Assembly: GCA_001800905.1 (NCBI GenBank)
Contig: MGWH01000002.1
Span: 1 to 64,000, forward strand
DNA: 64,000 nt
Direction of reading: 5' to 3'
DNA from: Flavobacteria bacterium GWA2_35_26
Lineage (GTDB): Bacteria > Bacteroidota > Bacteroidia > Flavobacteriales > Flavobacteriaceae
The notes beneath the pieces are model-generated. The model was not told the DNA's origin. It was given only the letters and a program-made list of their open reading frames with translations, and searched no databases. Made by a program: the position numbers and the translations under genes. Positions 62,877 through 64,000 of the stretch are shown here, in pieces (position 1 is the first letter of the stretch; each line of letters begins with the position of its first letter).

Positions 62877-62916
62877 AAAAAAGCGAGAAAAATATATTTT
62901 TTTTTCTCGCTTTTGT
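62877..62916 (+). terminator. Intrinsic terminator after clpB
   Basis: aaaaagcgagaaaaatatatttttttttctcgctttt. Confidence 0.8.
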
Positions 62917-62918
62917 AT

Positions 62919-62948
62919 TTGCTTAATCGAATAACCTTTATATATTTG
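62919..62948 (+). promoter_or_regulatory. Bacteroidota-type promoter of trp operon leader
   Basis: TTG (62919-62921), 19-nt spacer, TATATTTG (62941-62948). Confidence 0.7.
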
Positions 62949-62966
62949 TCTTAACATAAAAAAATT

Positions 62967-63023
62967 ATGATAACAAATACAAACAATACTTGGTGGTGGA
63001 ACAATTTACGTCAGTCGTCGTGA
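62967..63023 (+). CDS. trp operon leader peptide, 18 aa (MITNTNNTWWWNNLRQSS)
   Basis: Short ORF absent from the track with TGG-TGG-TGG at 62991-62999, between promoter and terminator upstream of trpE. Confidence 0.88.
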   Translation: MITNTNNTWWWNNLRQSS

Positions 63024-63084
63024 ACAAAGCTCCTATAGTATTCTATAAAATATAAAAGGCTTGTCATGACGACAAGCCTTTTTT
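63014..63084 (+). promoter_or_regulatory. Transcription attenuator (competing antiterminator/terminator)
   Basis: Terminator ggcttgtc-atgac-gacaagcc plus T-run (63054-63084); 63014-63023 gtcgtcgtga pairs with 63064-63073 tcatgacgac (10 bp, one G-U). Confidence 0.82.
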
Positions 63085-63120
63085 CATATCCAAAACAATG
63101 CTTTTGATAACATTTTAAAA

Positions 63121-64000
63121 ATGAATAGTTTGAAATCTTTTAGTTTAACCACAAAATACAAACAAATACTTGCCGACACGATTACGCCGGTGAGTGTGTA
63201 TTTGAAAATACGCGATAAGTTCCCCAATAGTTTGCTCCTGGAAAGTAGCGACTACCACGGAAACGACAACAGTTTTTCCTACATCTGTTGCAATCCCATT
63301 GCAGCAATCAAGATTGAAAACGAAACGATTATCAAAAACTATCCTGATGGAAGTTCCGAGAAAATATCGATCGATGCTACAACGGATATTCCTGCGGTTA
63401 TTCAAGAATTTTCAGGACAATTTTCTTCAGAAAAAAACGATTTCAAGTTTATTAACAATGGTTTATTTGGTTATATATCTTATGATGCGGTGCGTTACTT
63501 TGAAAAAGTAAACATTGCCAAAAAAGAAAATAGCAATACCATTCCTGATGTGTATTATGCAGTTTACCAAAACATCATTGCCATCAATCATTTCAAAAAC
63601 GAGGCGTATATTTTTTGCCACAGTTTGGATGGTAAAAACAACATTGGAGAAATCGAGCAATTATTACAATCTAGAAATATTGCTTCCTATTCTTTCACCA
63701 AAGACGGCGAAGGATTTTCTAATTTAACCGACGAAGAGTTCAAGTACAATGTGGCTTTGGCCAAAAAACATTGCTACCGTGGCGATGTGTTCCAATTGGT
63801 TTTGTCCCGACGTTTCACCCAAGGATTTAAAGGAGACGAATTCAACGTATACCGAGCGTTGCGAAGCATCAACCCATCGCCTTACCTCTTCTTCTTTGAT
63901 TATGGTGATTTCAAAATATTTGGTTCTTCACCCGAAGCCCAAATTATTGTTAAAGACCGTAAGGCCGAAATTCATCCTATTGCGGGAACCTTTAAAAGAA
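63121..64000 (+). CDS. trpE: Anthranilate synthase component I (truncated by window end)
   Basis: ATG at 63121: MNSLKSFSLTTKYKQILADTITPVSVYLKIRDKFPNSLLLESSDYHGNDNSFSYICCNP...NGLFGYISYDAVRYFEK; open to the window end. Confidence 0.93.
   Translation, partial: MNSLKSFSLTTKYKQILADTITPVSVYLKIRDKFPNSLLLESSDYHGNDNSFSYICCNPIAAIKIENETIIKNYPDGSSEKISIDATTDIPAVIQEFSGQFSSEKNDFKFINNGLFGYISYDAVRYFEKVNIAKKENSNTIPDVYYAVYQNIIAINHFKNEAYIFCHSLDGKNNIGEIEQLLQSRNIASYSFTKDGEGFSNLTDEEFKYNVALAKKHCYRGDVFQLVLSRRFTQGFKGDEFNVYRALRSINPSPYLFFFDYGDFKIFGSSPEAQIIVKDRKAEIHPIAGTFKR

Follow-up and report, generated by a model that had tools for sequence, protein, structure and literature searches.

A probable ribosome-mediated, four-segment trp attenuator of the Bacteroid-trp family upstream of trpE in Flavobacteria bacterium GWA2_35_26

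At the end of the window (the whole stretch of 64,000 nt that was analysed), the leader that precedes trpE very probably acts on the trp operon as a ribosome-mediated transcription attenuator, one that belongs to the Bacteroid-trp RNA family and is built from four segments with mutually exclusive pairings. The elements of this leader, all on the + strand, are as follows, with the terminator designated 3:4 after the segments that form it.

62919..62948, + strand: putative Bacteroidota-type promoter, with TTG at 62919-62921, a spacer of 19 nt and TATATTTG at 62941-62948 (TAnnTTTG), read directly from the sequence
62947..63065, + strand: match to Rfam RF01692 (Bacteroid-trp) over the whole model (positions 1-131), 67.8 bits (gathering score 49), E 1e-8
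62967..63023, + strand: leader peptide ORF of 18 aa, MITNTNNTWWWNNLRQSS and a stop codon, read from the sequence and conserved in relatives
62991..62999, + strand: three tandem Trp codons (TGG TGG TGG), the putative sensor and stall site, conserved in all leaders examined
63005..63010, + strand: segment 1, the putative protector strand TTTACG, which pairs with CGTGAA at 63019-63024
63014..63030, + strand: segment 2, composed of GTCGTCGTGA (the antiterminator core, 63014-63023), CAA (63025-63027) and GC (63029-63030)
63054..63084, + strand: intrinsic terminator (3:4), stem 63054-63065/63071-63082, loop ATGAC, T run 63079-63084, from the sequence and folds
63059..63073, + strand: segment 3, the partner of segment 2, with GCTTG of the terminator 5' arm and the last TC of that arm, the loop ATGAC and GAC of the 3' arm
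63121..64000 and beyond the window end, + strand: trpE, anthranilate synthase component I (Pfam Anth_synt_I_N and Chorismate_bind)

The window thus closes with the leader of the trp operon and the initial part of trpE. In the region of the genome past the window (L225), the operon has the order trpE-G-D-(four-helix)-C-F-B-(four-helix)-A, with trpE as its first gene. The two inserted ORFs encode four-helix-bundle proteins and lie between trpD and trpC (L225:5949-6314, TIGR02436, 102.6 bits) and between trpB and trpA (L225:9039-9407, TIGR02436, 74.5 bits). The promoter at 62919-62948 fits the Bacteroidota consensus TAnnTTTG, and many relatives have TAnnTTTG-like sites at a similar position. On the other side of the promoter, clpB is followed by a strong terminator-like hairpin (62879-62914), the end of which leaves a gap of just some 5 nt to the -33 element of the trp promoter. 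The promoter, the 18-aa ORF with three Trp codons, the 10-bp helix and the terminator described in the first-pass annotation all agree with the sequence at every coordinate.

Using Infernal (gathering threshold 49 bits), we found that the match at 62947-63065 is the sole one to RF01692 above the cut-off in the genome. The leader also has the second trait of this family, a Trp-rich short ORF (WWW, 62967-63023) ahead of a Trp biosynthesis gene (trpE, 63121). Since RF01692 is already catalogued and the match scores well over the gathering score, the leader is an ordinary, well-supported member of a known RNA family and is not new as a kind. The family was first reported by Weinberg et al. 2010 (PMC2864571), and a Bacteroid-trp RNA has been noted ahead of the trp operon of F. 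psychrophilum (PMC6414381). The window shares with the family the whole 131-position model, the Trp leader ORF ahead of a trp gene and the Bacteroidota genome. The RF01692 model, however, ends at the terminator 5' arm, draws another stem and contains no explicit 1:2 / 2:3 / 3:4 switch of the kind proposed here. Our addition is to spell out this four-segment switch and to support it with evidence; the supplement of the 2010 paper may already describe a terminator or an antiterminator. Full-text searches of the literature on Bacteroid-trp RNA gave in silico mentions only, and experimental studies of attenuation in Bacteroidota appear scarce. A sub-threshold antisense RF01692 match (63071-63128, 25.2 bits) and other weak Rfam matches at the leader were taken as chance.

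The leader elements are highly conserved among relatives. A WWW leader peptide is encoded in 80 of the 80 nearest Flavobacterium trpE loci, and a Trp run is present in all 108 trpE loci of other Flavobacteriaceae genera, a non-random sample of one locus per genus that forms the better-scoring part of 183 matching genomes. Variants of the run, W-W-H or W-W-C, occur in a few leaders. When the window is added to the 108 loci of other genera, the Trp run and the terminator are both found in 109 of 109 leaders, and because of this conservation a chance origin of the leader elements is untenable. The leader ORF and the competing helices of the first-pass annotation likewise recur in these relatives, the antiterminator pairing in almost all of them.

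The complete window leader has the terminator as its minimum free energy (MFE) structure, and its folding surpasses that of all 200 dinucleotide shuffles (z -3.97). The antiterminator core GTCGTCGTGA (63014-63023) and TCATGACGAC (63064-63073) form a duplex of 10 bp that includes one G-U pair and has an energy of -14.3 kcal/mol. We had considered an antiterminator restricted to the loop and the 3' arm and dropped it for the window, where segment 2, by way of its CAA and GC, carries the helix on into the 5' arm of the terminator (63059-63063); the AAGC downstream of the core that matches this extension is present in 75 of the 80 Flavobacterium loci.

Across the 109 leaders, TCGTGA, together with the bases beside it, shows complementarity to the terminator loop and the initial nucleotides of the 3' arm. 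The score of the 2:3 helix is 17.2 +/- 1.6, against 8.8 +/- 2.1 with segment 2 shuffled, and falls under the shuffled 95th percentile in a single leader. The core is replaced by the compensated pair TCGTAAAC/GTTTACGA in one genus, and the nucleotide after the core forms a Watson-Crick pair with its partner in 50 of 95 leaders, which none of 20000 shuffles reached. Together with the replaced pairs in other families described below, the helix score and the compensated core give strong comparative support to the earlier proposal that the Ser-Ser-stop strand pairs with the top of the terminator.

The TCGTGA motif itself is exact in 104 of the 109 leaders. Its reading frame varies: 75 leaders have it in frame 0, 31 in frame 1 and 3 in frame 2. 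In a set of 95 leaders it starts 13-19 nt past the Trp run, in almost all cases 18 or 19, and the stop codon lies 0-5 nt from its TGA in 97 of 109. GTCGTGA is also retained in Flavobacterium leaders whose ORF ends two codons earlier, at TAG. Because the motif is kept across all three frames, with a stop near its TGA, and GTCGTGA is kept after the earlier TAG, TCGTGA is taken to be constrained as RNA and not as peptide.

Directly 3' of the Trp codons, segment 1 forms with CGTGAA a 1:2 hairpin that overlaps the antiterminator strand (63014-63030). Counting it as present when at least four of the six core nucleotides pair, we detected this hairpin in 106 of 109 leaders, at a mean dG of -5.1 and a mean z of -2.33 against mononucleotide shuffles. 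Lineages that differ markedly in the codons following the Trp run (LRQ and FRN types) have it as well. Compensatory variants include TTTACG/CGTGAA, CTTACG/CGTGAG and ATTACG/CGTGAT, and the end pair is C-G, U-A, U-G or A-U in 39 of the 40 leaders that have TTACG at the same position. Within one leader type the end pair forms in 31 of 32 cases, a value that 8 of 20000 shuffles equal in a test that ignores phylogeny. The covariation anticipated in the first-pass annotation for both helices was found at end pairs and in a few variants; the cores of 2:3 and 1:2 are nearly invariant in Flavobacteriaceae, and the statistics ignore phylogeny.

When the third Trp codon occupies the A site, the 3' edge of the ribosome lies at about 63010, given the usual footprint size. 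Because the conserved hairpin overlaps the antiterminator strand at a place where a stalled ribosome would cover segment 1, the pairing 63005-63010:63019-63024 is best read as a classical protector hairpin, in a design that appears to follow the 1:2 / 2:3 / 3:4 logic of E. coli. The leader has a conserved ORF with cognate codons, an antiterminator and a terminator that exclude each other, and a 1:2 hairpin on the antiterminator strand. With the Trp run and terminator in every leader and mutually exclusive helices, the comparison strongly supports the earlier suggestion that trp attenuation here would be ribosome-mediated. The further claim that three RNA segments suffice, unlike in E. coli, is not supported: there is a conserved fourth segment (63005-63010), whose hairpin is present in 106 of 109 leaders and has a covarying end pair. 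For the window, the proposed new design gives way to a known one.

We infer how the ribosome would stall, the timing of this and its regulatory outcome. When Trp is plentiful, the ribosome would get to the stop codon (63021-63023) and mask approximately 63003-63035, including segment 2, leaving the terminator 3:4 to form; in the window, the RNA outside such a ribosome folds as the terminator (-17.0 kcal/mol). When Trp is short, a ribosome stalled at 62991-62999 would mask segment 1 (63005-63010) fully or partly, and segment 2 (63014-63030), then free, would pair with segment 3 (63059-63073) and permit read-through into trpE. Since segment 3 comprises the loop of the terminator together with the inner end of each arm, the 2:3 pairing would block the terminator. 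If the leader is left untranslated, 1:2 would tend to hold segment 2, with termination by default.

When the ribosome is stalled on the last Trp codon and the first 4 nt of the 3' arm have been transcribed, the RNA beyond the ribosome folds as 2:3 in all 109 leaders, and 2:3 still folds in 104 of them with the ribosome edge six nucleotides earlier (+4). The complete terminator, in turn, is the MFE structure in 107 of 109 leaders despite a ribosome stalled at that codon. The window is one of the two exceptions: with the upstream RNA removed to the edge of the stalled ribosome, its antiterminator 2:3 (-20.3 kcal/mol) remains the MFE structure despite the presence of the complete terminator. Because the complete terminator is usually more stable, these folds imply that in most relatives the antiterminator has to work by kinetics. 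In ribosome-free truncated RNA, 1:2 wins in 83 of 109 leaders and 2:3 in the other 26, window included, so default termination without leader translation is predicted to be a tendency and not a rule.

These last results bear on a more compact attenuator, in which the antiterminator and terminator alone matter and 1:2 is a by-product of conserved leader codons. A stalled ribosome could by itself choose between 2:3 and 3:4, and both the loss of 1:2 in 26 ribosome-free truncated RNAs and the formation of 2:3 in 104 leaders with the ribosome edge at +4 are compatible with such an arrangement. We nevertheless consider it unlikely, given that the 1:2 hairpin is present in 106 leaders (mean z -2.33), spans the LRQ and FRN codon types and has a covarying end pair. 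It is less likely still that the long stem of the RF01692 model (AATAC 62986-62990 : GTATT 63038-63042) is the decisive alternative structure. The window aligns to the model with many non-standard pairs in this stem, even though the stem belongs to the RF01692 consensus; pairing between the upstream and spacer strands scores 10.5 against 9.0 in shuffles (sd 2.1), with 13 of 108 leaders above the 95th percentile, and folds of the window give a local UAUAG/CUAUA spacer hairpin instead.

The idea that Trp is sensed by another system (TrpR, TRAP or T-box) and that the Trp-rich ORF is incidental is largely refuted, and we regard it as the least probable of these alternatives by its very low likelihood. 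Searches for TrpR above the cut-off, T-box and TRAP gave nothing in the genome, which is 99.5% complete, with no match to T-box RF00230 in the genome or at the leader, and the Trp run is kept in every leader examined. What speaks for another sensor is one sub-threshold match to the TrpR family (20.4 bits against a cut-off of 27). This match covers 33 profile positions at G000:C3:266992-267090 on the minus strand and is probably a generic helix-turn-helix.

The four-segment attenuator is a sharply defined switch, kept in every Flavobacteriaceae leader examined, and as such offers base pairs that are directly testable. No obvious Shine-Dalgarno sequence was detected for the leader ORF at 62967-63023. 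Bacteroidota make little use of Shine-Dalgarno signals, and our results suggest that the attenuation logic of E. coli works in a phylum that is sparing with them.

The window leader and the textbook trpL attenuator of E. coli have in common the Trp codons in a short leader ORF, the protector hairpin, the antiterminator and the terminator, as well as a stop codon near the antiterminator strand. They differ in that the Trp codons precede segment 1 in the window, whereas they lie within segment 1 in E. coli. Moreover, the most conserved portion of segment 3 in leaders of the window type is the terminator loop with 2-3 nt of the 3' arm, the 5' arm being an extension. The Rfam family Trp_leader (E. 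coli type) has no match at the window leader.

In other families of Bacteroidia, detected through class-wide matches to RF01692, the leaders share the Trp run, a small hairpin directly after it, a strand complementary to the terminator, and the terminator. Their switch sequences are unrelated in letters to the TCGTGA of Flavobacteriaceae, and the switch strand has changed together with the terminator sequence complementary to it: GAACAGC/GCTGTTC, GGCAACC/GGTTGCC, ATGTGGC/GCCACAT, TCGTAAG/CTTGCGG and GAGAAGC/GCTTCTC (L086-L114, L226-L244). Of the 35 class-wide loci, 23 reach the shuffled 95th percentile for this pairing and 12 are below it; in at least one of the 35 (L096), the terminator finder appears to have chosen the wrong hairpin. 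Some of these families resemble the classical design, in that the strand pairs with the 5' arm of the terminator, either alone or together with the loop. Tentatively, the trp attenuators of Bacteroidia may follow one four-segment logic in which the antiterminator target drifts between families, the sequence being replaced and the complementarity retained. According to this reading, which could nearly as well hold as fail, the target would be the terminator loop and 3' arm in Flavobacteriaceae and several further families, and the 5' arm with or without the loop elsewhere. If true, an antiterminator can work mainly by seizing the terminator loop ahead of hairpin nucleation.
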